From positions 1 to 64,000 of the forward strand of contig NZ_VILB01000020.1 of NCBI RefSeq assembly GCF_009712035.1: a stretch of 64,000 nucleotides of DNA, given 5' to 3'. The position numbers were made by a program, and so were the translations under genes. The notes beneath the pieces are model-generated. The model did no database searches. It was not told the origin of the DNA and saw nothing but the letters and a program-made list of their open reading frames with translations. This DNA is from Anabaena sp. UHCC 0187. GTDB taxonomy: Bacteria; Cyanobacteriota; Cyanobacteriia; Cyanobacteriales; Nostocaceae. Below, in pieces: positions 46,866-63,694 of the stretch (position 1 is its first letter; every line of letters starts with the position of its first letter).

Positions 46866-46903
46866 GCGATAGCATTAAAAAAACCCAGGAATAACCCTGA
46901 GTC
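46866..46903 (-). promoter_or_regulatory. Box-terminator module 1 (class A)
   Basis: Minus strand order: hairpin ending the DUF5131 gene, T7, AATGCTATCGC box (46866-46873). The start of the next gene lies 40 bases further. First box of the array. Confidence 0.6.
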
Positions 46904-46911
46904 TTATGATA

Positions 46912-47955
46912 TTAAGGAAATTGACGTATCTGTAAATCCTGCGGGAACTCCATTAAAATCCCACCCTTTTTATCACTGATTTTGTAGGGTGCGTTATTTA
47001 ACATGGGTTTTGCTCCGAGTTGTTTGATGAATACTGGGATTTGGGATTTTTGGCATTGGTGAACTAGCGATCGCAGATTCTCAATATGACAAACACGGGC
47101 ATTGTGTCCAGACTCCCCACCAATAATTACCCAACTTAATTGAGGTTTACACTGAGTACAAATTGCTAATCCAGCTACGGGTGCAGCGTCAACAGCATAG
47201 AGAATATCCCGTTGTTCACCGCAACCGTCACAGATACCCGCACCAATAAACTCGCTTAAATACTCTGATAAATCAAGTTCTTCAAGCAATGGTTCACAAC
47301 TGAGAAACCGAATCTTGGCAGGTGTTTTTAGCAAATAATAAACATCTTCAGCGTCTTTCTGTGTGCATACCGAATACCCCAACCACAGATGATCCAATGG
47401 TAACTTGAGTGCCGTTTCCTCTAAGAATCTGCAACTTTCCTCTACTAATTTGCGTACCCGTTTTGTTAACTTGGTTTCCAGGATGTCAGATTTAGCTTTC
47501 ACCAATGCAGACTTAATCTTTTGAAGACGGTCAGGACTGGTGAAATACCGATACATGATTTCCGGGCGTTTGGTGAGAATTTGGTAAATGTTCCACCGGG
47601 CGATGATCATGTATGCCACAGCTTCATCTATGAAATCGAAGGGTACATCATGATGAAATAAATCCCCCAAATTAGCGACAAATACGAGTTCTGGTTTTTC
47701 CCAGTTTCCCCATTCCAAAATCCATTTTAAGCGTTGAGGTTGTAGATTAATTTGTCCTGTCCATTGCAGTTTACCATTGGTTGATTTTCGGACTGTTCCT
47801 GCAAAAACATCAGAGATTTTGGGGTTGGGGTGATGTGAATGAATCCAACTTTCTAAAATTGCATAGCAATTCGCGCACCCCTCAGAATCAGGGTCACAGC
47901 CCGTTACTATTGGCCATGTATTCCCAGTCCATTCAATATTAGAATCTTTGCTCAT
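46912..47955 (-). CDS. DUF5131 protein (phage Gp37/Gp68 family)
   Basis: The 347-aa protein opens SNIEWTGNTWPIVTGC and has the cysteine cluster GCDPDSEGCANCY, FVANLGDLFHHDVP, ILTKRPEIMYRY, HLWLGYSVC and SWVIIGGESGHNAR, all hallmarks of DUF5131. The family is radical-SAM-like and widespread in phages and plasmids; the reaction is not established. Two bases after the previous small gene, so these two share a transcript. Confidence 0.82.
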   Translation of the reverse strand: MSKDSNIEWTGNTWPIVTGCDPDSEGCANCYAILESWIHSHHPNPKISDVFAGTVRKSTNGKLQWTGQINLQPQRLKWILEWGNWEKPELVFVANLGDLFHHDVPFDFIDEAVAYMIIARWNIYQILTKRPEIMYRYFTSPDRLQKIKSALVKAKSDILETKLTKRVRKLVEESCRFLEETALKLPLDHLWLGYSVCTQKDAEDVYYLLKTPAKIRFLSCEPLLEELDLSEYLSEFIGAGICDGCGEQRDILYAVDAAPVAGLAICTQCKPQLSWVIIGGESGHNARVCHIENLRSLVHQCQKSQIPVFIKQLGAKPMLNNAPYKISDKKGGILMEFPQDLQIRQFP

Positions 47956-47957
47956 TT

Positions 47958-48167
47958 TTAACCTTCCAAGTTGAGATTTTTAGCTTGTTCAAGTAACTCC
48001 AGCATTTTCCTCAATGTTTGTTCACTCAGGTAAAGGTAACGCGCACTGTAGGTATCCGGGGCAGCATAGAAAAATCCAATTGTCATTTCGCATTTCTCAC
48101 CAGTAATGTAATCAACATTTTCCTCATCATCACTGGATGTCTTGATATCAAAATCATCTATTTGCAT
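47958..48167 (-). CDS. Small acidic hypothetical protein
   Basis: A 69-aa protein starting MQIDDFDIKTSSDDEENVD, with a C-terminal helix (QTLRKMLELLEQAKN). First gene of a two-gene unit with DUF5131, driven from module 2 whose box lies 40 bases before the ATG. Function unknown. Confidence 0.6.
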   Translation of the reverse strand: MQIDDFDIKTSSDDEENVDYITGEKCEMTIGFFYAAPDTYSARYLYLSEQTLRKMLELLEQAKNLNLEG

Positions 48168-48206
48168 ACTTACTCCAAACTATTTAAAAGTAACCACAAT
48201 CATTAA

Positions 48207-48241
48207 GCGATAGCATTAAAAAAAGCCGGGATAAACCCAGC
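48207..48241 (-). promoter_or_regulatory. Box-terminator module 2 (class A)
   Basis: Hairpin GCTGGG/CCCGGC with T7, then the box at 48207-48214. The next ATG is 40 bases beyond. Confidence 0.65.
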
Positions 48242-48252
48242 TTATTTGTTAT

Positions 48253-48528
48253 TTAATTGCCATAGATATCACCTTCTGGGATGAACTCATCATCAACAGG
48301 GGAATTACCATTAACAGTGAAAGTCTCTACTGATTGAGCTTTATTAATAAGTTTTCTGTATTCTTCCCTGACAGCTTCCCGACATTTATCTTGGAGAAGT
48401 TGAGTACACATATCCTCGTTTTCTCCTTCTGATATTGATGCCCAAATTGAACAGCCTAATGTGGCACTATTAAAGTCGCCTAAATTAAACTTTCTTTCGT
48501 AGCTAACTGCGATGGTTTTGATGAACAT
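48253..48528 (-). CDS. Hypothetical protein
   Basis: A 91-aa protein with AVSYERKFNLGDFNSATLGCSIW then SEGENEDMCTQLLQDKCREAV, a beta-then-helix pattern known from many phage and plasmid proteins of unknown function. The box of module 3 lies 43 bases upstream of its ATG. Confidence 0.65.
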   Translation of the reverse strand: MFIKTIAVSYERKFNLGDFNSATLGCSIWASISEGENEDMCTQLLQDKCREAVREEYRKLINKAQSVETFTVNGNSPVDDEFIPEGDIYGN

Positions 48529-48570
48529 TTTGACCTCTATTTTTTATTCAAAAGTAACCACAATCATGAA

Positions 48571-48606
48571 GCGATAGCATTAAAAAAAAGCCGGGATTTC
48601 TCCCAG
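48571..48606 (-). promoter_or_regulatory. Box-terminator module 3 (class A)
   Basis: Hairpin GCTGGG/CCCGGC around AGAAAT, T8, box at 48571-48578. Confidence 0.65.
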
Positions 48607-48623
48607 CCCATAATTACAATTAA

Positions 48624-48836
48624 TTAGCTATTGTCAGGTTCATTTACTTTCCTTTGGGCAATCTCAGCATTAATTTCTTGGTACATATCGTATGCACTAA
48701 TGCAATCATCAGGTAGATTACTTGAATATTTATAACCATATCTGAGTAAGTTATAAAGTAAATTTATTTCATCATCATCGAAGTTAGCAAACCGAGATTC
48801 ATTAGTTTCGGGATTATTACAAGTAGATTCAGACAT
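48624..48836 (-). CDS. Small acidic hypothetical protein
   Basis: A 70-aa protein starting MSESTCNNPETNE with FDDDEINLLYNLLRYGYKY. ATG 48836 is chosen because GGAG lies five bases upstream, inside the bases of an earlier ATG. Function unknown. Confidence 0.55.
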   Translation of the reverse strand: MSESTCNNPETNESRFANFDDDEINLLYNLLRYGYKYSSNLPDDCISAYDMYQEINAEIAQRKVNEPDNS

Positions 48837-48880
48837 ATTTTTCTCCATTATGTAGCATTAATGATTACCAACATCACCAA

Positions 48881-48888
48881 GCGATAGC
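48881..48888 (-). promoter_or_regulatory. GCTATCGC box without terminator
   Basis: Exact box 45 bases upstream of ATG 48836. The upstream gene ends only five bases away, leaving no room for a hairpin. Confidence 0.55.
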
Positions 48889-48893
48889 ATCAA

Positions 48894-49199
48894 TCACTTT
48901 CTCCAGTTGTCGGGGTTTTCAGGGGATGCCAGGGTTTCCTCATATTCTGAGTTAATGAATGCTAAATCAAACTGTTCTTTAGCTATTAATAACCCCAAGG
49001 TTTCAAACTTTGCATAGGCTTCTTCATCCCATATTGGTGCAGTTGCAATTGCTTCCAACAACCTTGAATTATAATCTGTCAATACCCCATGATTATCCAA
49101 TGATTCAATCACCTCTAATAACCGTTGCTTTGGTGGTTTTGGATGATAACATTTAGCAGGTAACAATGCTTTCGGGGTGAATCCTGTTAATAGTTTCAT
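48894..49199 (-). CDS. Hypothetical protein
   Basis: A 101-aa protein starting MKLLTGFTPKALLPAKCYHP with a helical, acidic second half. No family recognised. A degenerate box (GAGATAAC) is 33 bases before the ATG. Confidence 0.55.
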   Translation of the reverse strand: MKLLTGFTPKALLPAKCYHPKPPKQRLLEVIESLDNHGVLTDYNSRLLEAIATAPIWDEEAYAKFETLGLLIAKEQFDLAFINSEYEETLASPENPDNWRK

Positions 49200-49231
49200 T
49201 TGATAGACTCCTAATCAATTATACTCTAAAA

Positions 49232-49265
49232 GAGATAACATTAATAGGCTGGGAAACCCCAACCC
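49232..49265 (-). promoter_or_regulatory. Degenerate box module
   Basis: GAGATAAC at 49232-49239 in box position, next to a hairpin GGTTGGG/CCCAGCC. Confidence 0.45.
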
Positions 49266-49271
49266 GATTAA

Positions 49272-49721
49272 TTACTGATGAACTTCTAAAAAGTAGTGTT
49301 GAAGTTTCTGGAACAATTCAGTTAATAGCTCCCGGTTCTTCAAAGTTTCCAAACACCAATTCTCATTAGCGTAGTTTTTGGCATACAGATTAATTGCAGA
49401 TTTGGTAATCAGATAAAACGCTATTTTTAACGAGCTTTCTGTATGAGATTCTAACAAATATTCTTTCTTGATTAGATTACCTAATCTACGGATTTCCTGT
49501 TCATTTATTGAAGCCAAGTAAATTTGTTCAACTGTTATGTTATACTGAAAATAATCACATTTTTCGGCGATATTAACAAGTTCCAAATCATGTTTTATTT
49601 CGAATTCTGCAACTAATTCATGATTGCAATAAAAGTCTAATTCTGGTTCTGTTTCTCCCATACCAACAGATTGATAATAATGTGTATGATGTTTGCAGTC
49701 TAAACAGCTAAATTCAGTCAT
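49272..49721 (-). CDS. Hypothetical zinc-binding protein
   Basis: A 149-aa protein with an N-terminal Cys/His cluster (CLDCKHHTHYY, FYCNHEL, then AEKCDYF) that probably binds zinc, followed by a helical part. ATG 49721 is 31 bases from the box at 49752. Function unknown. Confidence 0.6.
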   Translation of the reverse strand: MTEFSCLDCKHHTHYYQSVGMGETEPELDFYCNHELVAEFEIKHDLELVNIAEKCDYFQYNITVEQIYLASINEQEIRRLGNLIKKEYLLESHTESSLKIAFYLITKSAINLYAKNYANENWCLETLKNRELLTELFQKLQHYFLEVHQ

Positions 49722-49751
49722 TGGGGATTCCAAAATCAACACAATCATCAA

Positions 49752-49790
49752 GCGATAGCATTAAAAAAGACCCAGAAATAAACCTGAGTC
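49752..49790 (-). promoter_or_regulatory. Box-terminator module (class A)
   Basis: Imperfect hairpin GACTCAG/CTGGGTC, T6, exact box at 49752-49759. Confidence 0.6.
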
Positions 49791-49796
49791 AAATAA

Positions 49797-50147
49797 CTAG
49801 ATAAAAGATGTTTTCTTATTAGCAAGTTCAATTAATTCATCTACAAATTTACATAAAGTTTCCATATCATCATTTGGAGCTTTACGAACTTGTATAAACG
49901 TTTCATCTAAATCTGGTTTATCACCATCTCCCATCAGTCCGGGGTCAAACAAGATATGAACCAATGCTACCTTAGTGTTCTTAGCCCATCTGGTAACTTG
50001 AATTTCATAATGTCCATATAATCCATCATCATAGCGAGAGTCTTTACATATAAACATGGAACTTTCTAAAAAGTCTATAAACTTTTTATCCTGTGAAATC
50101 CAGGTTCTTTTTTCCATTTGATTAATATCAAACAGTTCTGCGTACAT
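49797..50147 (-). CDS. Hypothetical protein
   Basis: A 116-aa protein starting MYAELFDINQMEKRTW, then GLYGHYEIQVTRW and an acidic DPGLMGDGDKPDLDE loop. I prefer ATG 50147 (GGAG eight bases upstream, box 36 away); ATG 50162 would leave only 21 bases to the box. Function unknown. Confidence 0.58.
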   Translation of the reverse strand: MYAELFDINQMEKRTWISQDKKFIDFLESSMFICKDSRYDDGLYGHYEIQVTRWAKNTKVALVHILFDPGLMGDGDKPDLDETFIQVRKAPNDDMETLCKFVDELIELANKKTSFI

Positions 50148-50182
50148 TTCTAATTTCTCCATATAGTCAACAGCCCCAATAA

Positions 50183-50224
50183 GCGATAGCTTTAAAAAAG
50201 TCAGCAATACCCTTATGTATTGCC
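50183..50224 (-). promoter_or_regulatory. Box-terminator module (class A)
   Basis: Strong hairpin GGCAATAC/GTATTGCT, T6, exact box at 50183-50190. Confidence 0.65.
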
Positions 50225-50233
50225 AACTAATTG

Positions 50234-50512
50234 TTATAAATTATCTGGGTCATTCCAACCAGGAGGATTCAATACCAAAGTTGGTTCAAAAATAACATTT
50301 GCTCCATAATCTCTAACAAGGTCATCACAGTTTCTGAGAGATTGAATCAAACAACTGCTAAAATCTGGAGTACAAGCGTTACCATCAAATATATAGAAAT
50401 CAGGATGCGAGGAAAGACTAACTTCGGAAGCATATCGTTGGTCAATCCATGTAGGATGATTTTCATAAATTTTGATTTGGAATCCTTCGTAATGAACTAT
50501 CATGTTATTCAT
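50234..50512 (-). CDS. Hypothetical protein
   Basis: A 92-aa protein starting MNNMIVHYEGFQIKIYENHP, all-beta then helical. The ATG at 50512 is 36 bases from the box; the longer frame would read through the box. Function unknown. Confidence 0.58.
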   Translation of the reverse strand: MNNMIVHYEGFQIKIYENHPTWIDQRYASEVSLSSHPDFYIFDGNACTPDFSSCLIQSLRNCDDLVRDYGANVIFEPTLVLNPPGWNDPDNL

Positions 50513-50547
50513 GGGTGTCCTAATTAATAAATAACCACAACCTCTAT

Positions 50548-50576
50548 GCGATAGCAACCCCACTGATAACCGGGGT
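50548..50576 (-). promoter_or_regulatory. Box with GATAAC half-site
   Basis: Exact box at 50548-50555, followed on the + strand by ACCCCACTGATAACCGGGGT, a GC hairpin. Confidence 0.55.
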
Positions 50577-50591
50577 GTAACTCTATAAAAA

Positions 50592-50632
50592 ATCACCCCG
50601 ATAGCTAAACATGACGTAAGCTATAGGGTGAT
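50592..50632 (-). terminator. Terminator of the 50639 gene
   Basis: Minus strand ATCACCC and AGCT arms pair with AGCTAT and GGGTGAT, then T6. A long stem with a 12-base loop. Confidence 0.75.
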
Positions 50633-50638
50633 AAAAGA

Positions 50639-51013
50639 TTAGATAAACAAGTGAGCAACATCAGAATTAACGATGAATACCCCGGTGGTAATGTCATCTT
50701 TAAAACTGGAAGAATATACTTTACCCTGCCAAGGTTGACAAGGTATACGGGGATGTCTGAAAGCTTCACCAACAATACCAAAATGTGAATCATCAACTTT
50801 GAGTCCTAAATATCTTTTAGAATCATGTTGATAGAGATAAAATTGGAAAGTTAGTTCTTCACCATTCCAGGGTTCAGCACGATTGAATGAACCAAACTGA
50901 ACAGCGTAAACTTCGACAGCTAATAACATATCGTGTTCAATGTTAATAGCATGACAAGTTTGTCTTCTGTTGAGTCTAGAAAGATAAGTCTGATATTCGG
51001 ATGCAGTAAACAT
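50639..51013 (-). CDS. Hypothetical protein
   Basis: A 124-aa protein starting MFTASEYQTYLSRLNRRQT with a beta-rich body (LTFQFYLYQHDSKRYLGLKV). No family recognised. ATG 51013 is 40 bases from the box that is split from its upstream half by a MITE. Confidence 0.6.
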   Translation of the reverse strand: MFTASEYQTYLSRLNRRQTCHAINIEHDMLLAVEVYAVQFGSFNRAEPWNGEELTFQFYLYQHDSKRYLGLKVDDSHFGIVGEAFRHPRIPCQPWQGKVYSSSFKDDITTGVFIVNSDVAHLFI

Positions 51014-51052
51014 GATTGTCTCCAATAAATTCCAAAAAACCAACACCTCTTA

Positions 51053-51060
51053 GCGATAGC
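51053..51060 (-). promoter_or_regulatory. GCTATCGC box, upstream side displaced by a MITE
   Basis: Exact box. The element at 51065-51261 begins just beyond it and its target duplication includes most of the box, so the original upstream context is now about 200 bases away. Confidence 0.55.
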
Positions 51061-51064
51061 GCCC

Positions 51065-51261
51065 CAGGGGAAACGCATCTAAATCTTATTGACAAAATAC
51101 CGTTTTAATGTATGAACCAAAAAATCCCTATTGATCGTTTGATTGATTTTTTTAGGATCATAGTGATGGACTAAAGTATTGTCAATAAGTGGTCGTTAAT
51201 GCGAATATTTTGGTCATTATTGAGATTGAATCGCCCTTATTGATAAGATGCGTTTCCCCTG
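51065..51261. mobile_element. 197-bp MITE, ISAs1-like ends
   Basis: Perfect 16-base terminal inverted repeats CAGGGGAAACGCATCT bound a 197-base segment with no gene. It is flanked by the exact 10-base duplication GATAGCGCCC (51055-51064 and 51262-51271), created from a GCGATAGC box. CAGGG ends and 8-10-base duplications are the style of the ISAs1 family; no transposase is present, so it would move in trans. Confidence 0.85.
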
Positions 51262-51340
51262 GATAGCGCCCCCACCGATAACCTTTCAGTAACGTTATCT
51301 TTGTTAACTTGGTTTCCAACATTGTCAGAGTATTAAAAAA

Positions 51341-51358
51341 GCCGGGATTTCTCCCAGC
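51341..51358 (-). terminator. Terminator of the 51368 gene
   Basis: GCTGGG/CCCGGC hairpin followed by T6 on the minus strand, same as at 48583. Confidence 0.7.
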
Positions 51359-51367
51359 TATTAAAAA

Positions 51368-51592
51368 TCAATATTCAACATCAATTTCACGATTAAGCCA
51401 ATCATGAAAATCCTCACTACTCCATTGAGGTCGTAATATTTCCATCAAATCATCAGCTTGTCTTACTAATTCTTCTTCTCCTTTATGATCCTCGCAAAAC
51501 TTAATTAGTTTAAGACAGATATCTTCTAATTCAATAAGTGTACTGATACCATTGTTGATTCTAGCTTCTAATTCCATGAGTTCGTTATTCAT
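51368..51592 (-). CDS. Small helical protein, paralogue of the 53292 gene
   Basis: A 74-aa protein starting MNNELMELEARINNGIST; shares ELE-x-x-IN-x-GI, LRPQWSS and the closing helix with the gene at 53292. Acidic, probably a helical bundle. Function unknown. The box (GCGACAGC) is 33 bases upstream of ATG 51592. Confidence 0.6.
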   Translation of the reverse strand: MNNELMELEARINNGISTLIELEDICLKLIKFCEDHKGEEELVRQADDLMEILRPQWSSEDFHDWLNREIDVEY

Positions 51593-51624
51593 GATGTTTG
51601 TGATATTAACAGCACCACCTTTCA

Positions 51625-51656
51625 GCGACAGCGCACCCACAGATAACATTGGGGTA
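51625..51656 (-). promoter_or_regulatory. Degenerate class B box
   Basis: GCGACAGC followed by GCACCCACAGATAACATTGG, the class B pattern with one change in the box. Confidence 0.5.
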
Positions 51657-51787
51657 ACGTCATCTAATTCTTTTTTGGAGATATCTATTGCATTACAATC
51701 CTGGTAAAACACTAAAGTATAGAAGCGATGGCACAAAAAACTCATTTTCGTTTATAATAAAAACATAGTCTAAAGTTAAACGAAATT

Positions 51788-51949
51788 ATGGAAGTTATCT
51801 TATCTCCAACAGAACCAAGAAGAATTAAACCACCTGAACCCAACCTTACATTAGTTAATGAATTATTCCCTGATTTTGCCAATGTAAAAATAAATTATCA
51901 AGAACTCGGCAAAGAATTGGAGAAAAAATTAACAACTAAGAAAAAGTAA
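51788..51949 (+). CDS. Small + strand protein
   Basis: The frame encodes 53 aa, MEVILSPTEPRRIKPPEPN up to ELGKELEKKLTTKKK, preceded by TATAAT at 51753 (+ strand). It is the only rightward gene in the 46-64 kb block. The composition looks protein-like; no strong ribosome-binding site. Antitoxin-like in size, but no evidence. Confidence 0.45.
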   Translation: MEVILSPTEPRRIKPPEPNLTLVNELFPDFANVKINYQELGKELEKKLTTKKK

Positions 51950-52015
51950 AAACTAAAAAAATGTAGCGATCACCTCAAAAAGAAGCGATCGCTATAATAA
52001 ACCCCGACTAATTAA

Positions 52016-52360
52016 TTACTGTTTATTAACCAATTGTTGAAGCAGAGACTTCATTTCCTCCATAGATTTCTCTAACCTATCTATGCGTTGGTCAACAAAG
52101 TATTCCTCCTGATTCAAAGATTCCACATCATCCCATTCAATGTATGCTTTGCCACCCATTGCTTCAATAATGTCCAGAATCGTAGACAACTTACTTTTCA
52201 AGGGTTCTTCAATTGCTTTAGATGTTGTAGTATGGTAATTCATCGGTTTCCCAGAACCTTTGATTTCGGCAATTATTTTGGATATTTGATATAAGGTTGT
52301 ACCAATGTCTGCCAATCTTTGAGATAATGCTTCCGTGTTTAATTCAACTTGATATGTCAT
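52016..52360 (-). CDS. Helical hypothetical protein
   Basis: A 114-aa protein starting MTYQVELNTEALSQRLADIG with a C-terminal coiled coil (DRLEKSMEEMKSLLQQL). No box precedes it, only a terminator hairpin directly upstream, so transcription may depend on readthrough. Function unknown. Confidence 0.58.
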   Translation of the reverse strand: MTYQVELNTEALSQRLADIGTTLYQISKIIAEIKGSGKPMNYHTTTSKAIEEPLKSKLSTILDIIEAMGGKAYIEWDDVESLNQEEYFVDQRIDRLEKSMEEMKSLLQQLVNKQ

Positions 52361-52384
52361 GGTGTCCTCCGGTTCATAAAAAAA

Positions 52385-52411
52385 GCCGAGTCGGGGTTTC
52401 CCAAACTCAGC
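52385..52411 (-). terminator. Terminator between 52420 and 52016 genes
   Basis: Minus strand GCTGAGT...ACTCGGC stem, then T8. No GCTATCGC box follows. Confidence 0.65.
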
Positions 52412-52419
52412 ATTGTTTG

Positions 52420-52791
52420 TTAGTTCACTAATTTTCCGTATCTAATCATCAACTCATTAAGAACCCTGATAAAATCATCATTAGTAGCAGAAGTTGATAC
52501 TTGATTATCTTCTCGGTATTTATTGGCAATGAGATTCATTAACTCATCATATTCAGATTGATTGATTTCCCCAAAATTATGTTTCAAAATCTGTATTACA
52601 TAAGCCTCCTTAGCAACCTCCCAGCTAATACCAAGAGCTTGTGCCTCAGCTTCTAGGACTAACATAAACTTCTGGTGTATAGCTGCATAACCTTGATACT
52701 CAATAGGGAATTGGTCAATAGATTTATGTTTAATTGAATCAAGAGACTCATGAAACATAAAATACATTTCAGTCAAAGATTTATTGGTCAT
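52420..52791 (-). CDS. Helical hypothetical protein
   Basis: A 123-aa protein starting MTNKSLTEMYFMFHESL with EAEAQALGISWEVAKEAYV. No recognised family. Like its neighbour it has only a terminator upstream, no box. Confidence 0.58.
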   Translation of the reverse strand: MTNKSLTEMYFMFHESLDSIKHKSIDQFPIEYQGYAAIHQKFMLVLEAEAQALGISWEVAKEAYVIQILKHNFGEINQSEYDELMNLIANKYREDNQVSTSATNDDFIRVLNELMIRYGKLVN

Positions 52792-52811
52792 GTTAGTTCT
52801 CCAAAAAAAAA

Positions 52812-52833
52812 GAGCCAGAATTACTCCTGACTC
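52812..52833 (-). terminator. Terminator between 52843 and 52420 genes
   Basis: GAGTCAG/CTGGCTC stem around GAGTAATT, then T9 on the minus strand. Confidence 0.65.
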
Positions 52834-52842
52834 GTGGTAAAC

Positions 52843-53501: not shown

Positions 53502-53531
53502 AATTACCTTTAAAAACACCAAAACCCTGAA

Positions 53532-56552: not shown

Positions 56553-56553
56553 A

Positions 56554-57000: not shown

Positions 57001-57017
57001 ATTACTCCTAAAAAAAA

Positions 57018-57039: not shown

Positions 57040-57048
57040 TGTTAATTT

Positions 57049-57246: not shown

Positions 57247-57278
57247 TTCCTGAATACCGAAAACAACAACATCAAAAA

Positions 57279-57286
57279 GCGATAGC
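57279..57286 (-). promoter_or_regulatory. GCTATCGC box
   Basis: Exact box between the 57293 and 57049 genes; only six bases separate it from the upstream stop, so there is no terminator. Confidence 0.55.
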
Positions 57287-57292
57287 ATTAGT

Positions 57293-57541: not shown

Positions 57542-57860
57542 TGATTCCCCCATTGTATTGCATTGAATGTTGTTGAGATAATTCATTAAAAACCCGGCGA
57601 ATATCCGTGATTCTCAGACTTTGATAGTTAGTAGCCCCAATTGCGTATTTTCTCCACACACCAATTTGCTGGAAATAAACGCAGAGATAATATCCATAAT
57701 CAGGTAATATCAACACCGGACATTTAAGACCTGTATAATATGGTTGGAATTGTTTGACAGGGTTTCCCAAATCGTTTAAACTACCCTTATTAACCAGCCA
57801 GAAATCGGCATTAGCAAAGTTGTTTTTGACAATCCAACGAAAACAAGACTTATTTTCCAA
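57522..57860 (-). CDS. Hypothetical protein, probable TTG start
   Basis: A 112-aa protein with VLILPDYGYYLCVYFQQIGVW, a beta-rich core. There is no ATG near the front; TTG at 57860 is 32 bases from the box, the usual distance, while TTG 57872 is 20. Shares a transcript with the next gene. Confidence 0.52.
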   Translation of the reverse strand: MENKSCFRWIVKNNFANADFWLVNKGSLNDLGNPVKQFQPYYTGLKCPVLILPDYGYYLCVYFQQIGVWRKYAIGATNYQSLRITDIRRVFNELSQQHSMQYNGGINVKITY

Positions 57861-57891
57861 AATGCTTCCCAAAACACAACGGCATCGGGAA

Positions 57892-57899
57892 GCGATAGC
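57892..57899 (-). promoter_or_regulatory. GCTATCGC box
   Basis: Exact box next to the stop of the SLOG gene; no hairpin. Confidence 0.55.
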
Positions 57900-57900
57900 A

Positions 57901-58383
57901 TTAAAATAAACTTAGTTGTCTGGGTTCAATTACTGCGGTTTCCAAGGTTCTGGGATTAAATTGGATTACTGGGAGATTGTGAGCGATCGCCAAATTTACA
58001 GTCAGCGCAGCACCCCCAGTCAACCGACCATCATAAACAGCCAAGCAAATATCAGAATGCTTGACCATCCAAATATCACGGGCTTGCATAACACCAGGTG
58101 TATATTCTGGATACAATACAATCTTGTTAGATGCAGACTTCAGAAGTTCTTGGTATTTAAGTTTTTGTTGGGGACTCCATAATCTGTCTTGGTTTTGACA
58201 GGGGATTACAGCAGTCCAATTTAATTCTCTTTCAATTAATATTTCAGCAGCTTCCTGATCAACACCCAAAGCCATACCATTCATAAATTCAGTAACACCA
58301 CGTTCCCAAGCAATATCAATCAATTGATTGATTCCATCTTTGATATTGACGATATCCCGGTGTCCAGTGAAAAATGCTTTCAT
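57901..58383 (-). CDS. SLOG-fold protein (YspA/DUF1273-like)
   Basis: A 160-aa protein starting MKAFFTGHRDI, with the Rossmann-like GVTEFMNGMALGVDQEAAEI, a hydrophobic strand IVLYPEYTPGVMQARDIWMV and LAVYDGRLTGGAALTVNLA. SLOG proteins bind nucleotides or sugar-nucleotides and act in several stress and defence systems. Box 30 bases from the ATG. Confidence 0.75.
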   Translation of the reverse strand: MKAFFTGHRDIVNIKDGINQLIDIAWERGVTEFMNGMALGVDQEAAEILIERELNWTAVIPCQNQDRLWSPQQKLKYQELLKSASNKIVLYPEYTPGVMQARDIWMVKHSDICLAVYDGRLTGGAALTVNLAIAHNLPVIQFNPRTLETAVIEPRQLSLF

Positions 58384-58412
58384 AATGCTGATGTAAATAA
58401 CATCACTAACAA

Positions 58413-58456
58413 GCGATAGCATTAGCAATAAAAAAGTCCCTAGTTAGACTAGAGAC
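58413..58456 (-). promoter_or_regulatory. Box-terminator module (class A)
   Basis: Hairpin GTCTCTAGT/ACTAGGGAC, T5, box at 58413-58420. Confidence 0.65.
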
Positions 58457-58464
58457 TCATGGGT

Positions 58465-58752
58465 TTATTCAATGTCAGTTAACTTTTGAACTTCCTGAAT
58501 AGATTTAATGGTGTTGTTAATCAATCTACTAATCAATTCAATCCTTACTTCATACGATATAGTAGGATCATTCAGATTTTCAATTTGGAACTTTGCCGAT
58601 AACATATTATTGAGAGCCACTGCTAAATTTATTTTCATTTCATCATCTCGTTGTTCGTATTCCTGAACCTCTAACTCCCAATCTTCTGGTTCATGTTTTG
58701 TTACAGAAACGGGCATTCCATGAGCTTCATGATATTCAGTATATTGTGACAT
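58465..58752 (-). CDS. Small helical hypothetical protein
   Basis: A 95-aa protein starting MSQYTEYHEAHGMPVSVTKH, acidic then helical (VRIELISRLINNTIKSIQEV). Box 32 bases upstream. Function unknown. Confidence 0.58.
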   Translation of the reverse strand: MSQYTEYHEAHGMPVSVTKHEPEDWELEVQEYEQRDDEMKINLAVALNNMLSAKFQIENLNDPTISYEVRIELISRLINNTIKSIQEVQKLTDIE

Positions 58753-58783
58753 AATGATATTACAAAAACACCATCGTCAACAA

Positions 58784-58821
58784 GCGATAGCATTAAATAG
58801 CCCCAATCTAATGACTGGGGT
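58784..58821 (-). promoter_or_regulatory. Box-terminator module (class A)
   Basis: Hairpin CCCCAGT/ATTGGGG, box at 58784-58791. Last class A module with an exact box towards the right. Confidence 0.6.
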
Positions 58822-58833
58822 TATTGTTAATTA

Positions 58834-59277
58834 CTAGTATTTCTTATTGTGAATAAACTCTGCTACTTCAGCACGATTTCTAGCTTCTATTTCATCCAAT
58901 TTAGCCAATGCTTCATCCAAACTTTGAGTTGAATAAATACAATAAGCTTTGCGTTTGACAAAGATGCCATAATAGCCGGTGATACCTTGAGCTTTACCTG
59001 CTCTGGTGATATCTGTACACCACTTCACGTAAATGTGATCGCCAACAGTAGCTAATTCTCGTTTAACTAACTCCTTTTGTTTGAGTTGTTCGCCGATTTC
59101 TTTAACTGCTGTGATAACTTCTTCACGGGTGTTAGACCACCAATGACAATCTTCACTCTTCACTAAAACGTCATCAATATATATTTCATAACTCCATACG
59201 TTCTGACGCATAGATTCACGATAATATTGACGAAGATTGCGAATACTGCCTTGGATTTCAGGGGCTTGATAAAACAT
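58834..59277 (-). CDS. Hypothetical protein
   Basis: A 147-aa protein starting MFYQAPEIQGSIRNLRQYYR, with a WSYEIYIDDVLVKSEDCHWW beta part and a coiled C-terminus (LDEALAKLDEIEARNRAEV). Box 32 bases before ATG 59277. Function unknown. Confidence 0.6.
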   Translation of the reverse strand: MFYQAPEIQGSIRNLRQYYRESMRQNVWSYEIYIDDVLVKSEDCHWWSNTREEVITAVKEIGEQLKQKELVKRELATVGDHIYVKWCTDITRAGKAQGITGYYGIFVKRKAYCIYSTQSLDEALAKLDEIEARNRAEVAEFIHNKKY

Positions 59278-59308
59278 GATGAATACCAAAAAATAACGCC
59301 CCCTGTCA

Positions 59309-59365
59309 GCGATAGCGCCCCCACAGATAAATAAACAATAACTCCAATCTTGTTAGACTGGAGTT
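59309..59365 (-). promoter_or_regulatory. Class B box with oxygenase terminator
   Basis: Box GCGATAGC followed by GCCCCCACAGATAAATAAAC, then an AACTCCA/TGGAGTT hairpin. Nearly identical to the module at 59999. Confidence 0.62.
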
Positions 59366-59372
59366 AAGTAAA

Positions 59373-59966
59373 TTAATAAACTTGTCGAATTGTCAGGTTG
59401 AGTCTGCCACCATTCTTGAGCAAACTGGAAGTACCTGGTATTATCTTCTTAATGCCATGAAAAGCAAGTCTGGAATCACCATGCAAAATCAAGATGTCGC
59501 CGCTTTTGAGCAAAATCTCTTGAGTTGGAGCGTTTCTTTTGTTGCCACCGATTAAGAAGATTGCATCATCACCAAGACTAATAGAGATAATCGCTGGTTT
59601 CAGATTCTTCTCAGAATTATCTTGATGAAGTCCGAGTTTACCTGCTGACTTATAGAAATTAATCAAGCAAGTTTGAGGATGATAATCGGGTTCACCAATC
59701 TGATTAGCCAAATCTTTAGCGAGATTATTAATTATCTCTGGTATTGGTGTCCAAACTCTTCCAGTAGTTGGATGCTTTTTGGTGTATCTATAACCTTTAG
59801 TATCAGAAATCCAGCCAAGTTCACCGCAGTTAGTCATTTGGTAATTAAAAGGTTTACCAGATGGCATTACAGGAGTGAATAAAGGAGATTGTCTGGCTAC
59901 TTCTCTGCAAACTTTGAGGATTTCAGTCTGCTGTTCTAATGTTAAATGTTGTTGTAAGTGAAGCAT
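59373..59966 (-). CDS. AlkB-like 2OG-Fe(II) dioxygenase
   Basis: A 197-aa protein with the AlkB jelly-roll set: H-x-D in GLHQDNSEKNL, distal His in ILHGDSRLAFHGI and the 2-oxoglutarate Arg in GGRLNLTIRQ. Substrate loop FNYQMTNCGELGW. AlkB enzymes repair alkylated DNA or RNA by oxidative demethylation; phage versions may act on modified bases. ATG 59966 chosen; box 33 bases upstream. A second oxygenase is the next gene upstream. Confidence 0.85.
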   Translation of the reverse strand: MLHLQQHLTLEQQTEILKVCREVARQSPLFTPVMPSGKPFNYQMTNCGELGWISDTKGYRYTKKHPTTGRVWTPIPEIINNLAKDLANQIGEPDYHPQTCLINFYKSAGKLGLHQDNSEKNLKPAIISISLGDDAIFLIGGNKRNAPTQEILLKSGDILILHGDSRLAFHGIKKIIPGTSSLLKNGGRLNLTIRQVY

Positions 59967-59998
59967 GGTTAAATTCCCAATAAAATCATCACTTTTCC

Positions 59999-60057
59999 GC
60001 GATAGCGCCCCCACAGATAAATAAACAATAACTCCAATCTATTGCTAAACTGGAGTT
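59999..60057 (-). promoter_or_regulatory. Class B box with oxygenase terminator
   Basis: Box at 59999-60006, GCCCCCACAGATAAATAAAC, then an AACTCCA/TGGAGTT hairpin; near-copy of the 59309 module. Confidence 0.62.
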
Positions 60058-60071
60058 ATTTATGTTTACAA

Positions 60072-60599
60072 CTAAACTATTGGGAAATAACCTTTCTGTT
60101 GATTCAACTGCCAGAGATTAATACTAAATCTTTCTTCACTCAAGATTTCAGTTACTCCATGAAGTTTCTTACAATTAAACTCAATGATATCACCATCATT
60201 AAGTTGATAATCTTTACCATCATAATTAAATATACAACTACCAAGATTCACAGTTCTAGCAATTGGTCTAGAATAAGTATGATCCCGATGTGATATAATC
60301 AATCCGGTACTTTGAATATTACCAATCTTGCCACCAAAAGTTAACAAGCCGATATTAGTTCCGGGATAAACTCGCTGACAGAAATTCCAAAGTCTATCAT
60401 TATGATAAGCTTTAGTGATTGTTCCAGGAGTTCTCAAATCACACTCATGAAATAACCAAAGACGATATCTACCTCTAGCGTAACTAGAAACATCGCTAGT
60501 CATTAAATTGACGCTTTCTCGACAAAAGCTTCTTAAATCAGCTAAAGTTTCGGATTTAACTTTGCTAATTAATTTCAAATCACTGGGGTTAGGATTCAT
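60072..60599 (-). CDS. 2OG-Fe(II) oxygenase-like protein
   Basis: A 175-aa protein with HRDHTYSRPIARTVNLGS (H-x-D), a later His in FNCKKLHGVTEI and Arg in ERFSINLWQ, the spacing of a 2-oxoglutarate/iron(II) oxygenase of the AlkB or PKHD type. GGAG six bases before ATG 60599. Substrate unknown. Box 31 bases upstream. Confidence 0.75.
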   Translation of the reverse strand: MNPNPSDLKLISKVKSETLADLRSFCRESVNLMTSDVSSYARGRYRLWLFHECDLRTPGTITKAYHNDRLWNFCQRVYPGTNIGLLTFGGKIGNIQSTGLIISHRDHTYSRPIARTVNLGSCIFNYDGKDYQLNDGDIIEFNCKKLHGVTEILSEERFSINLWQLNQQKGYFPIV

Positions 60600-60629
60600 G
60601 AAATTCTCCAAATTACTCAACTCCCCTCA

Positions 60630-60652
60630 GCGATAGCGCCCCCACAGATAAC
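60630..60652 (-). promoter_or_regulatory. Class B box
   Basis: Box at 60630-60637 followed on the + strand by GCCCCCACAGATAAC. The 155 bases from here to the next gene hold no recognisable gene. Confidence 0.55.
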
Positions 60653-60807
60653 CTATCAACAACATTGAGCGCCAGCGATTCTAAATCAAGTTTGCAAAGA
60701 ATAGCCCTGGACTGCTTGCAGGACACGGCGGTATTGGCTCAACGAGTCGGTTGATGTGATTGTTAGTGATTAAGCCAGTATCCCCAATGAGAATACCAGC
60801 TTATCAA

Positions 60808-61200
60808 TTAAACTTGAGTTAATAACCATTCAACACAACGTTGGATTAACTCTGCATGAGAGCGATCGCTAATATAAATCAATTTCACATTCTCATGTTG
60901 TTTTGCAAATTCAACAATGTGGATGAGATGTTTGAAATACATTCCACGATACCAATTGGGTTCTGCTCCCCAAACTTTCAATTTACCTTCCTGATAACGG
61001 GGAAGATAGGCTTTGATTTCCTGCCAGAGTATGATTCTTTGTTGTTCAATGGTACGGTCATATCTCCAAAGATGAGAACTGCCAAGAACATCATAATCTT
61101 GAGTCCAACCCTCACTAACATTGAAAACCTTGTCACTAAGTCTAAATTTGGTCTTTTCAACTTGACAGATTTGGGGATTGAATTGTTCGAGAGTAATCAT
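60808..61200 (-). CDS. Hypothetical protein
   Basis: A 130-aa protein starting MITLEQFNPQICQVEKTKFR, with HLWRYDRTIEQQRIILWQEI and LIYISDRSHAELIQRCVEWL. No family recognised; the end suggests an alpha/beta fold. Box 32 bases upstream of the ATG. Confidence 0.6.
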   Translation of the reverse strand: MITLEQFNPQICQVEKTKFRLSDKVFNVSEGWTQDYDVLGSSHLWRYDRTIEQQRIILWQEIKAYLPRYQEGKLKVWGAEPNWYRGMYFKHLIHIVEFAKQHENVKLIYISDRSHAELIQRCVEWLLTQV

Positions 61201-61231
61201 GGTAAATACCAAACAACATCACTCTCATTCC

Positions 61232-61255
61232 GCGATAGCGCCCCCACCGATAACC
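61232..61255 (-). promoter_or_regulatory. Class B box, extended
   Basis: GCGATAGC then GCCCCCACCGATAACC; the following 40 bases also match the region after the 62078 box. Confidence 0.6.
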
Positions 61256-61317
61256 TCCCGGTAACTCAAGACTGCAACGCCAACAGAAAACCCAGAGGTA
61301 TTTGAACAATAAAAAAA

Positions 61318-61344
61318 GCCCGGATTCCCATAGAGAACCAGGAC
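61318..61344 (-). terminator. Terminator of the 61352 gene
   Basis: Imperfect stem AGTCCTGG...CCGGGCT, then T7 on the minus strand. Confidence 0.55.
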
Positions 61345-61351
61345 TAAAGGA

Positions 61352-61645
61352 CTACAAATTAACTAAAATCTGACCAACTTCATCATATTCAGCATCACGA
61401 TGGGGCGGGTATTCTTCACTTTCATTGCTAGTAAAATTAAGAAAATGATTTTTACCATGATAGTAATTACCAACAAATAAATCACAACGATGATGATATA
61501 ATACAAGTTGATGATTGGTTAAATAGGGTTGAATATGCTCACGTTCAAAGCGGGTTTTTCGAGTAAGTTCACCAAAGTCAATACCCTTTCTAGGTTGTTC
61601 AGGAGGTAAACCACTACCAAATTTACTGGGGATGTTAATAGCCAT
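61352..61645 (-). CDS. Hypothetical protein sharing its start with the 61735 gene
   Basis: A 97-aa protein beginning MAINIPSKFGSG; a His/Tyr-rich middle (LVLYHHRCDLFVGNYYHGKNH) may bind metal. The first eight residues match the next gene (MAINILSK). Degenerate box GTGATAAC 34 bases upstream. Confidence 0.58.
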   Translation of the reverse strand: MAINIPSKFGSGLPPEQPRKGIDFGELTRKTRFEREHIQPYLTNHQLVLYHHRCDLFVGNYYHGKNHFLNFTSNESEEYPPHRDAEYDEVGQILVNL

Positions 61646-61678
61646 AAATTCCTGATGTTAGATAATCAAAAACGCCAA

Positions 61679-61724
61679 GTGATAACATTAAAAAAAAGCC
61701 CTAATCCCCAAAGGAGACTAGGAC
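61679..61724 (-). promoter_or_regulatory. Degenerate box-terminator module
   Basis: GTGATAAC at 61679-61686, T8 and an AGTCCTA/TAGGGCT hairpin. Confidence 0.5.
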
Positions 61725-61734
61725 TTTAAACTAC

Positions 61735-62046
61735 TTAGTATGGAATATCATCAGGATTGGCAGGTTCATTACCAATACCTTGAGATTTATTACGCTTCTG
61801 GTAATATCTGGTTCTTTCACCAAGCAAATCATCTACGGTATAACCCAAATCTGCAATGAACTTATCAAACTTGGCTTGATCCATCTTATGAATGTCATGA
61901 GTTAACCATTCCTGTTCAAAGATTTTATAACCTTCCTCACCTTTAACACGATTATCAATCTTGTACTGTTCCCAAGCTAAAACTCGAATTCCATCCTTGA
62001 GTTGAGAAAGTTTCTTGTTAGCTTTGGAAAGAATGTTGATAGCCAT
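61735..62046 (-). CDS. Hypothetical protein
   Basis: A 103-aa protein starting MAINILSKANKKLSQLKDGI; helical and charged. Shares its N-terminal eight residues with the 61352 gene, pointing to a copied promoter-start segment. Box 32 bases upstream. Confidence 0.58.
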   Translation of the reverse strand: MAINILSKANKKLSQLKDGIRVLAWEQYKIDNRVKGEEGYKIFEQEWLTHDIHKMDQAKFDKFIADLGYTVDDLLGERTRYYQKRNKSQGIGNEPANPDDIPY

Positions 62047-62077
62047 AACGATACCGGGTAAACAACGCCCCCCCTGC

Positions 62078-62101
62078 GCGATAGCGCCCCTACCGATAAC
62101 T
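62078..62101 (-). promoter_or_regulatory. Class B box, extended
   Basis: GCGATAGC then GCCCCTACCGATAACT and further similarity to the 61232 module. Confidence 0.6.
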
Positions 62102-62225
62102 TCCAGGTAACTCAGGACTCCAACGCCAACGAGTAGACCATGTTTACAGTGTTTGTCGGGGGGTTTTAGAATGAGCGATCGCTATGGTCAAGGTAAGCAT
62201 CGCTACATTTCCGCAATAAAAAAAA

Positions 62226-62247
62226 CCCAGCATTAAGGAACACTGGA
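62226..62247 (-). terminator. Terminator of the 62255 gene
   Basis: CCAGTG/GCTGG imperfect stem followed by T8. Confidence 0.6.
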
Positions 62248-62254
62248 TTTAATG

Positions 62255-62629
62255 TTATGCAAGTATTACTTTAGTACGTTGAACTCGTTGGATATTAGCA
62301 GCAGTACCCCGACTTTTACCATCCCAAATTGCTAAACCATAATCAGCGATACTGCACATTTGTTTATCCCTATCAACATAATTACCAAGCACCCCAACTA
62401 CATTAAAACCACTGGTATTGCGGGGTTTACCATTACCATTAAACATCGCATAATAAACGGTAACATTTTGATAACCTTGGGATTTTAGATACTGTTGAAT
62501 TAAATTATCAACACCGGGGGCATCACCAATGATTACTTTAAATTCCAGTTCAATGATTTTGTTTAAACTGATAATTGTTGGTGTTGGTAATTCATGAATA
62601 CACCGACTACCAGAGATTATTACTATCAT
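62255..62629 (-). CDS. SLOG-fold protein (DUF2493/YspA-like)
   Basis: A 124-aa protein: VIISGSRCIHE at the start, then FKVIIGDAPGVDNLIQQYL and VTVYYAMFNGNGKPRN, as in SLOG-type DUF2493 proteins; C-terminus YGLAIWDGKSRGTAANIQ fits the nucleotide pocket. A second SLOG protein lies at 57901. Role unknown; possible nucleotide sensor. Box 32 bases upstream. Confidence 0.72.
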   Translation of the reverse strand: MIVIISGSRCIHELPTPTIISLNKIIELEFKVIIGDAPGVDNLIQQYLKSQGYQNVTVYYAMFNGNGKPRNTSGFNVVGVLGNYVDRDKQMCSIADYGLAIWDGKSRGTAANIQRVQRTKVILA

Positions 62630-62660
62630 GGGTTTATTTTAAATCAACTAAATTCATATT

Positions 62661-62683
62661 GCGATAGCACCTACAGATAAATA
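62661..62683 (-). promoter_or_regulatory. Class B-like box
   Basis: GCGATAGC followed by ACCTACAGATAAATAG, a shortened class B pattern. Confidence 0.55.
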
Positions 62684-62699
62684 GATGCTACCGAAACTC

Positions 62700-63086
62700 C
62701 TAAAAATATTCGCTGTATGCAGATTTAAACCAATCTTGTTTGATTATCCATTCAGCAGCCCTGATAATATTGTCACCATGACACTGATAGGGTTTACACC
62801 AACAAGTTAGAATTATTTCTTCTCCAGCCACTAACTTTAAACAGATATCCCTCAAAGCACTTGTAGTTTCATCAAGTTCACCTGTTTGAGACCATTTAAG
62901 AATCTTATGGTAAAGATATTTATGAAAGAAACTACAAACTTTCTCTCTTTCACTTTCTCCATTACCAGACATTTTAAATGGATTATGTAAGGGTGATTCT
63001 GGTAAATCATAATAACTATTAGCTCTACCAATATAGATTCTATTTTCACCAATAAACCCGGTGGTTTTGCCATTTGCAACTTTCAT
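62700..63086 (-). CDS. DUF4326 protein
   Basis: A 128-aa protein with the DUF4326 pattern: RIYIGRANSYYDLPESPLHNPF, a helical middle, then IILTCWCKPYQCHGDNIIRAAE with the conserved Cys-Trp-Cys-Lys-Pro and Cys-His. The family is frequent in phages and actinobacterial or cyanobacterial plasmids; function unknown. ATG 63086; box 31 bases upstream. Confidence 0.78.
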   Translation of the reverse strand: MKVANGKTTGFIGENRIYIGRANSYYDLPESPLHNPFKMSGNGESEREKVCSFFHKYLYHKILKWSQTGELDETTSALRDICLKLVAGEEIILTCWCKPYQCHGDNIIRAAEWIIKQDWFKSAYSEYF

Positions 63087-63116
63087 ATCTATACCAAAAA
63101 ACAACATCCCCTCTCA

Positions 63117-63140
63117 GCGATAGCGCCCCCACCGATAACT
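63117..63140 (-). promoter_or_regulatory. Class B box
   Basis: GCGATAGC followed by GCCCCCACCGATAACTTTGG, identical to the trailing part of the 63671 box. Confidence 0.6.
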
Positions 63141-63191
63141 TTGGTTCAAACACAATGATGTTAATATCTAAGTAATTGAATGCAGACACTA

Positions 63192-63368
63192 TTAATGGTT
63201 TTTAGTAGGAAAGTTGATAATGTATTTGGGTGTCCCTGGGTTCTCTGTAATCAATATTTTACCAATCATTAATTCCTGGTTTTCACAAGCTGATTTATAA
63301 ACCCGGAAATTCCCAGGATAACGCTGTTTAAATTGTAGTGCTAATCCTTTACCCTTAAATTCTATCAT
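63192..63368 (-). CDS. Truncated DarG-like macrodomain
   Basis: A 58-aa frame: MIEFKGKGLALQFKQRYPG, then YKSACENQELMIGKILI and PKYIINFPTKNH. These blocks match the centre of DarG-type macrodomains (GKGIALQFK, IINFPTK) that strip ADP-ribose from DNA. The normal N-terminal GDLL and DAIVNTVN strands are missing and the end is cut just after the FPTK-x-HW motif, so catalysis is unlikely. It looks like an internally deleted remnant. No box upstream, only a hairpin and T7. Confidence 0.65.
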   Translation of the reverse strand: MIEFKGKGLALQFKQRYPGNFRVYKSACENQELMIGKILITENPGTPKYIINFPTKNH

Positions 63369-63386
63369 GTTACGTCTTTAAAAAAA

Positions 63387-63411
63387 GCCTAACTCCTTTT
63401 AGGAATTAGAC
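63387..63411 (-). terminator. Terminator of the 63427 gene
   Basis: CTAATTCCT/AGGAGTTAG stem then T7, ending 19 bases before the macrodomain start. Confidence 0.7.
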
Positions 63412-63426
63412 TTTAAATTACATTAA

Positions 63427-63636
63427 CTAAAATGGAACTGATGGATCTACTTTTGCAGATTCTATCAAACCATTATCTATAAGACACTTCCCAGCTTCGA
63501 TTGCTGATTGTGTATCTTCTTCGGGTTTCCAAGAATCACCGTTTACAGAATAAACAACTGATTCCTCACAGGCAATAACAAAGATATCGTTATCCTTGTA
63601 ATCAACTCTAGTTGAGTAAATTGCTGTGTTAACCAT
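63427..63636 (-). CDS. Small hypothetical protein
   Basis: A 69-aa protein starting MVNTAIYSTRVDYKDNDIFV with an acidic middle (WKPEEDTQSAIEAGKCL). Box 35 bases before the ATG, with GGAGG nine bases upstream. Function unknown. Confidence 0.6.
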   Translation of the reverse strand: MVNTAIYSTRVDYKDNDIFVIACEESVVYSVNGDSWKPEEDTQSAIEAGKCLIDNGLIESAKVDPSVPF

Positions 63637-63670
63637 GACGAAACCTCCAAATAAAAACTAACTTCTCTTT

Positions 63671-63694
63671 GCGATAGCACCCCCACCGATAACT
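63671..63694 (-). promoter_or_regulatory. Class B box
   Basis: GCGATAGC then ACCCCCACCGATAACT; last box before the window's right edge. Confidence 0.58.

Follow-up and report, generated by a model that had tools for sequence, protein, structure and literature searches.

The subject of this analysis is a 64,000-nucleotide stretch from Anabaena sp. UHCC 0187, hereafter the window, which forms the first 64 kb of contig NZ_VILB01000020.1 (102,669 bp in total) and carries in its last third an array of small genes, of which most have one and the same octamer, GCTATCGC, in front of them. Judged from sequence, these boxes are probably the promoters of a two-barrel RNA polymerase encoded on the same plasmid, 2.6 kb beyond the window. 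For a polymerase of the type of YonO, a proven single-chain relative of the cellular RNA polymerases, the array offers a bipartite promoter candidate, a natural set of variants and a candidate regulon.

A bipartite element before the small genes

Read on the plus strand, the box is GCGATAGC, and exactly 23 copies lie between 46866 and 63678, all in a single orientation, as a preliminary description of this DNA had counted. Over the whole window and both strands there are 26 occurrences, against 0.29 expected from shuffles. Three further boxes stand in the array past the window on the same contig (64507, 64911 and 72836); with the 23 they make up the aligned set of 26, which happens to equal the whole-window count but is a different set. 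Alignment of these 26 boxes establishes that the octamer is only the left half of a bipartite element of fixed spacing. Counting its first G as 0, there is a G at +13 (23/26), a T at +18 (22/26), a G at +19 (24/26) and a T at +21 (25/26), and then a T-rich stretch out to +27; in this array all positions from +28 to +49 stay below 0.4 bits. Eight of the 26 boxes form a class with an upstream extension like TTATCnGTGGGG.

A weight matrix of the 31-bp element, which was built on the same 26 sites that it then finds and was used with a cut-off of 9 bits, matched the 102.7-kb contig 31 times on the minus strand and once on the plus strand, with 0.5 matches per strand in shuffles. The five matches beyond the 26 are four degenerate boxes (61686, 56552, 51732 and 51632) and one shifted overlap, where five degenerate boxes had been claimed. 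The features are given below in window coordinates unless the contig is named.

46866..46873, minus: box GCTATCGC, heads the open reading frame (ORF) to 45864, ATG about 46826
48207..48214, minus: box, heads ORF 47958-48167, directly after which comes the DUF5131 gene 46912-47955
48571..48578, minus: box, heads ORF 48253-48528
48881..48888, minus: box, heads ORF 48624-48848
49752..49759, minus: box, heads ORF with start about 49721
50183..50190, minus: box, heads ORF with start about 50162
50548..50555, minus: box with upstream TTATCAGTGGGG extension, heads ORF with start about 50512
51053..51060, minus: box, heads ORF with start about 51013
51625..51632, minus: degenerate box GCTGTCGC, matrix score 20.7
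51725..51732, minus: degenerate box GCCATCGC, matrix score 12.1
53532..53539, minus: box, heads ORF with start about 53501
54138..54145, minus: box, heads ORF with start about 54105
56017..56024, minus: box, heads DUF5895 gene 54980-55966
56545..56552, minus: degenerate box ACTATCGT, matrix score 16.0, heads ORF 56058-56513
57279..57286, minus: box, heads ORF with start about 57246
57892..57899, minus: box, heads ORF 57522-57872, TTG start
58413..58420, minus: box, heads YpsA/SLOG-family gene, ORF to 57901
58784..58791, minus: box, heads ORF 58465-58752
59309..59316, minus: box with TTATCTGTGGGG extension, heads ORF with start about 59277
59999..60006, minus: box with extension, heads 2OG-Fe(II) oxygenase gene, ORF to 59373
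60630..60637, minus: box with extension, heads ORF to 60072 (weak cupin match, under the Pfam cut-off)
61232..61239, minus: box with extension, heads ORF to 60808
61679..61686, minus: weak box-like site GTTATCAC, matrix score 9.8
62078..62085, minus: box with extension, heads ORF 61735-62046
62661..62668, minus: box, heads ORF 62255-62629
63117..63124, minus: box with extension, heads DUF4326 gene, ORF to 62700
63671..63678, minus: box with extension, heads ORF 63427-63636
45864..64000, minus for nearly all genes: small-gene array, continuing on the contig to the box at 64911
contig 64960-66573, plus: partner gene (537 residues), outside the window, directly upstream of the polymerase gene
contig 66576-69230, plus: putative polymerase gene (884 residues), 2.6 kb beyond the window
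contig 69320-69838, plus: HU gene, after the polymerase gene
contig 72836, minus: last box of the contig array, past the HU gene

With the start codon taken as the first ATG (else GTG or TTG) lying 22-74 nt downstream and opening an ORF of at least 45 codons, 16 of the 23 window boxes stand 30-45 nt from it, where the earlier statement had nearly all; a wider range of 30-50 nt takes in 20 of the 23, and for all 26 the same range takes in 23, with a median of 39 nt and usually an ATG. A box is present at 24 of the 36 gene junctions in the gene list made in this analysis. A strict hairpin plus T-run lies within 45 nt upstream of nine of the 26 boxes compared with 35 of 508 control positions (P 8e-5), and a looser terminator test gave 12 of 26 boxes compared with 25 of 100 controls. 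Terminators are over-represented before boxes, yet only a minority of boxes has one, and the described succession of terminator and box is therefore genuine without being general. Repeats ending in CTTCGCTATCGC at positions 88454, 93369 and 99054 of contig C12, outside the window, contain the octamer without the element; they were separated from true elements by their flanks and would mislead counts of the octamer alone.

The 884-residue protein and its link to the element

The 884-residue protein is probably a member of the two-barrel superfamily of the YonO and RNA-dependent RNA polymerase (RdRP) type, from which we infer polymerase activity. DxDGD is a metal-binding motif, and here (D473, D475, G476, D477) it is invariant in eight of eight plasmid sequences and in 24 of 24 diverse aligned members; distant members read it as ADFDGDQ, which we take to be its reading in the catalytic motif of cellular RNA polymerase. 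K226, G227, T228, S247 and K250 are also invariant in the 24-row alignment and may correspond to the KG...S..K pattern with the catalytic first-barrel lysines of RdRPs. The family assignment is by profile. Against PDB sequences, the 24-row profile placed plant RNA-dependent RNA polymerase 2 (RDR2) on top, at E 0.0011 and 0.0015 in matches that cover the DxDGD region; further RdRPs came at E 0.22 and 0.34 amid unrelated proteins from 0.26; an 8-row profile returned the same two RDR2 sequences and no others at E 0.8, and a narrow 10-row profile (A2) had no PDB match. In hhalign, an alignment of 349 columns to four YonO-family phage proteins brought the DxDGD regions into register (P 2.6e-6, probability 88.7%), and a control with the alignment of partner proteins gave P 0.81; a single YonO piece against alignment A1 was not significant (P 0.12), whereas deeper alignments were. 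Seven proteins were scanned with the Pfam RdRP family PF05183 (cut-off 23.8), which was passed by one distant member (24.9 bits) and narrowly missed by two, with no match for the 884-residue protein itself, two viral relatives or a YonO relative. A T7-type polymerase, a guess from size, was dropped once DxDGD was seen, and a T7-type Pfam match was absent. The role of DxDGD in YonO-type polymerases is treated by Forrest et al. 2017 (PMC5467207).

Relatives of the 884-residue protein were found by tblastn in 33 plasmid records, and among the matches listed 20 of 20 were cyanobacterial. An HU gene follows the polymerase gene in the contig analysed here, in Anabaena sp. WA102 and in Phormidium yuhuli, and likewise follows the YonO gene in the phages phi3T and Perkons. 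At Pseudanabaena-type loci (L070, L071, L073-L078, L081 and L086) the polymerase relative, of roughly 790 residues, is accompanied in the locus by another protein with a DFDGD motif, about 1.2-1.6 thousand residues long, which could be a second polymerase subunit.

Element and gene are linked both within the genus and across a sample of the phylum. Run on 60 genomes (our own and 59 relatives), the pattern GCTATCGCN5GRN3TGNT matched 16 times in the genome analysed here, 13 times in that of WA102 (G005) and 10 times in G014; the remaining 57 had 0 to 3 matches, not above a reversed control pattern. For the phylum, the pattern GCTAYCGCN10TGNTNTTT and the polymerase profile (E 1e-40) were both run on 386 Cyanobacteria-phylum genomes. 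Any match of the pattern occurred in 21 genomes, at least three matches in seven, and the polymerase in 14; all seven genomes with at least three elements encode the protein, whereas none of the 372 without it reaches three (Fisher 1.4e-11). Six of the seven have elements on the contig of the polymerase gene; on the chromosome of G012, four of the five matches are 43-52 kb away from that gene. Among the remaining seven carriers, G085 (Cylindrospermum) has cores missed by the stricter tail of the pattern and G036 and G162 (Cyanobacterium aponinum) have another core; the polymerase-gene match is partial or interrupted in G162, G247 and G314.

In other genera, polymerase-gene relatives often adjoin one-strand arrays of small genes, and de novo motif search found a related element in 14 of 17 arrays, a set including three of the same genus and five of Planktothrix. 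The core is specific to lineages. Planktothrix and Cylindrospermum, for example, have GCTACCGC, Anabaena azotica GCTGTCGC, Spirulina GCTATCGC, Lyngbya CTACCGC and Synechocystis B12 CTATCG; C. aponinum has GTTTTCAC, a more distant form that was also obtained for Geminocystis in a second motif run. The arrays in which the first run did not find a related element were Microcoleus vaginatus (L053), L061 and L055, and sites in L053 and L061 were later obtained by pattern or second run. Anchored on the core alone, TG stands at exactly +18 in 74 of 92 sites from 13 arrays outside our own genus, against a mean of 4.5 of 92 at other tested offsets (+21 excluded); the cores for this count were picked after the motif-search results, and the 92 sites are non-independent, as Planktothrix contributed four of the 13 arrays. 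The opposite strand lacks the core in 15 of 16 arrays.

The boxes as probable promoters, and the alternatives

A sigma-70 promoter has a TATAAT-like -10 hexamer with A at its second base, 16-18 bp from the -35. In the 92 sites the hexamer that follows TGN has A as its second base just eight times, no conserved -10-like hexamer lies downstream, and with CTATCG taken as a -35 the spacer to the would-be -10 is 14 bp; for these reasons of base and spacing the sigma-70 reading fails. The argument made earlier, that a terminator leaves no room for a normal -35, applies only to the minority of boxes that have one. What fits best is the other part of that proposal, one dedicated promoter reused for the whole set and one factor that switches it, with the difference that the factor is probably a two-barrel polymerase in place of a sigma factor or activator.

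The following mechanism is envisaged. Host polymerase would read an operon of partner, polymerase and perhaps HU; as no box stands on that operon's own strand in the contig, it is presumably transcribed by the host enzyme, which would make the system a two-step switch. The single-chain polymerase would then bind the bipartite element at the 8-bp core and thereafter at TG at +18 and the T-rich stretch, and transcription would start some 10 nt short of the ATG, at about +28 to +31. The small genes would be transcribed as separate units, shielded from upstream transcription where a terminator precedes the box. A variant of this mechanism that depends on the partner or on an activator may apply.

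It is worth setting out the observations that weigh against the boxes being promoters of the plasmid's own polymerase. Firstly, with respect to the protein, the 884-residue sequence alone has no polymerase match in Pfam or PDB, such matches coming from profiles and distant members only, and an AlphaFold model of its relative L048, made with ten similar rows, has a mean predicted local distance difference test score (pLDDT) of 56.8, falling below 50 in the catalytic region. In Synechocystis B12 and C. aponinum the polymerase gene is annotated in pieces despite box-like sites, and three of five YonO phage stretches inspected, whose flanks were short, have no annotated HU gene. Secondly, with respect to the element, the motif search had just two to three shuffled controls per array, and these used fewer seed words than did the real data; the second run gave no related element in P. 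yuhuli, Nostoc L049 and L050, Oscillatoriales L055 and L059, or the stretch of G012 beside the polymerase (the phylum-wide pattern nonetheless has three sites in the L055 contig, five in G012 and one in Phormidium), and the UHCC 0315A plasmid has no element in octamer counts. Among viral contigs, L136, which holds the closest relative of the protein, has no element by a relaxed pattern, and the motif GCTAACGC discussed below is absent from two of the eight that hold distant relatives. Thirdly, all seven element-bearing genomes in the phylum sample were first met via the polymerase, and most of their arrays were known when the pattern was drawn up, so that the weight of that test rests on the 372 negatives. 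Finally, co-occurrence alone cannot tell which plasmid gene recognises the box, the partner or the polymerase.

That last point is the strength of an alternative to which we give a small but real chance, namely that the boxes bind a plasmid-encoded activator, perhaps the 537-residue partner, which recruits host RNA polymerase, leaving the two-barrel protein some other role. The partner gene immediately precedes the polymerase gene and travels with it, partner-like proteins having been aligned for 11 loci. However, the lack of a conserved -10-like hexamer and the spacing described above speak against recruitment of the host enzyme, and conservation is lower in the partner than in the polymerase (21-41% compared with 49-77% identity to the first alignment row), although the geometry of the element is constant. 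It is rather improbable that the element acts in RNA, as a common leader controlling translation or stability of all the array messages: the near-constant distance to the start codon (median 39 nt) would suit a leader, but terminators end within 45 nt of nine of the 26 boxes, and a promoter there should therefore lie in or below the box.

A more improbable explanation again is that the boxes serve as sites of recombination or insertion through which the genes are exchanged as cassettes. Alignments with sister elements have 31 of their 66 ends within 25 bp of a box, zones that make up 7.6% of the array, and in this the earlier suggestion that boxes let cassettes recombine survives weakly, the ends clustering at gene junctions. 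However, 1603 bp of boxless junctions contain 11 ends and 3842 bp of box junctions 43, which makes the excess hardly box-specific, and the distance from element to ATG is fixed in most cases. There is next to no prospect that the boxes are by-products of GCGATCGC, which we take to be the abundant octamer called HIP1: it is one base from the box and has many copies in the window, but the fixed flanks, single orientation, start-codon distance and missing opposite-strand core in 15 of 16 arrays, with a core that varies by lineage while TG at +18 is constant, already contradict it.

Viral relatives, known systems and the carrier plasmid

In IMG/VR, nine contigs hold relatives of the 884-residue protein, eight of them distant (24-30% identity) and that of L136 the closest (51%). 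The motif GCTAACGC occurs 50 times in six of the eight contigs with distant relatives; 22 of the 50 occurrences are intergenic (outside ORFs of 100 residues), and in 22 of these 22 TGA follows at +18 (four) or +19 (18). The intergenic sites lie on the strand of the polymerase gene, and five of the six loci appear closely related. Among the PHROGs, one with the name RNA-dependent RNA polymerase has a match to a viral member (E 7e-4). Contigs L137, L138 and L140-L143 have an ORF of 1.4-1.95 thousand residues after the polymerase relative, and L142 has a sigma-factor-like ORF (4291-4953) and a tail tape-measure match (133-1305). A phage origin of the array was considered and rejected: 46000-64000 has no near DNA match in the phage collection, and tblastn of the 884-residue, 245-residue and DUF5895 proteins had no match there, relatives of the first being found in plasmids and IMG/VR contigs.

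On balance, we lean towards a wider proposal, that the plasmid family carries a complete private transcription system, with a sigma-independent two-barrel polymerase and about 26 promoters of its own, whose lineages would have drifted in the core while keeping TG at +18, possibly giving orthogonal pairs, and which would have a viral branch (GCTAACGC...TGA). If this is true, plasmids of filamentous and other cyanobacteria transcribe some of their genes without host polymerase and are partially independent of it, with a bearing on plasmid autonomy, the ancestry of cellular RNA polymerase and orthogonal expression tools. It would also provide, to our knowledge, the first promoter consensus for the YonO class.

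T7 RNA polymerase is one chain of about 880 residues that uses a short dedicated promoter. If the promoter reading holds, the plasmid enzyme would resemble T7-like phage polymerases in this mode of working, but it belongs to another superfamily, by its DxDGD motif and lack of a T7-type Pfam match. Eukaryotic RdRPs (plant RDR2, PF05183) share with it the profile match around the catalytic DxDGD; these enzymes copy RNA, whereas here the link to a DNA element speaks for DNA as the template. A proven polymerase among the relatives is YonO of Bacillus phage SPbeta, single-chain and DNA-dependent; Forrest et al. 2017 (PMC5467207) also mention YonO-like proteins of cyanobacteria, with the speculation that each serves the transcription of a specific gene set. 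The two are alike in the 349-column profile homology to the YonO family, the DxDGD-type motif, a size of about 100 kDa, the HU neighbour in two related phages and the proposed use of one polymerase for one gene set. They are unlike in that YonO transcribes the late genes of its phage as a single operon with one start, and its promoter sequence is described in that paper as yet to be determined, whereas the plasmid has about 26 separate candidate promoters, which yield a consensus. The closest working parallel found is in the yeast pGKL cytoplasmic linear plasmids, or virus-like elements, which according to PMC6211774 have their own RNA polymerase and monocistronic transcripts, each gene being preceded by a conserved promoter element that mostly stands 20-40 nt ahead of its start codon. 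The cyanobacterial plasmid would share these traits; the pGKL host is eukaryotic, the polymerase there poxvirus-like and the element a different one, ATNTGA.

The polymerase class is thus already known; what appears to be new is its setting on a plasmid, the regulon with many promoters and the consensus for the promoter. A literature search of titles and the beginnings of abstracts, with subscription literature mostly outside its coverage, found no paper describing this array; members of the cyanobacterial family may, however, be among the proteins already listed by Iyer and Aravind 2012 and Ruprich-Robert and Thuriaux 2010.

On present sequences the carrier of the array is a family of cyanobacterial plasmids, and the element carrying it in UHCC 0187 is itself plasmid-like. 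Its relative in WA102 is a complete circular plasmid (NZ_CP011457.1, 76,597 bp, corresponding to contig C2 of G005) with ParAB, recombinases and non-ribosomal peptide synthetase/polyketide synthase (NRPS/PKS) genes. The likeness to phage morons drawn earlier finds no counterpart there, no phage structural gene being annotated on this plasmid, where many genes are hypothetical. Of 30 array-region proteins, nine match a Pfam family at E 0.01 and five pass the family cut-off (DUF5131, 2OG-Fe(II) oxygenase, DUF4326, YpsA and DUF5895); six of ten array proteins match PHROGs. The WA102 chromosome has a second, partly broken copy of the array region, with a polymerase-gene remnant containing stops (G005:C1 3773935-3774895) adjoining a partial box array. 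NRPS/PKS genes adjoin the array and polymerase gene in Planktothrix L043 and L044. In the window, an adenine deaminase gene (42086-43717) adjoins the ParAB genes, an arrangement shared with the WA102 plasmid, and at about 14500-14900 there are several copies of a direct repeat, ATTCCCACTCGCTGGGGATATTAATTGAATGGAAAC, like those of CRISPR (clustered regularly interspaced short palindromic repeats).

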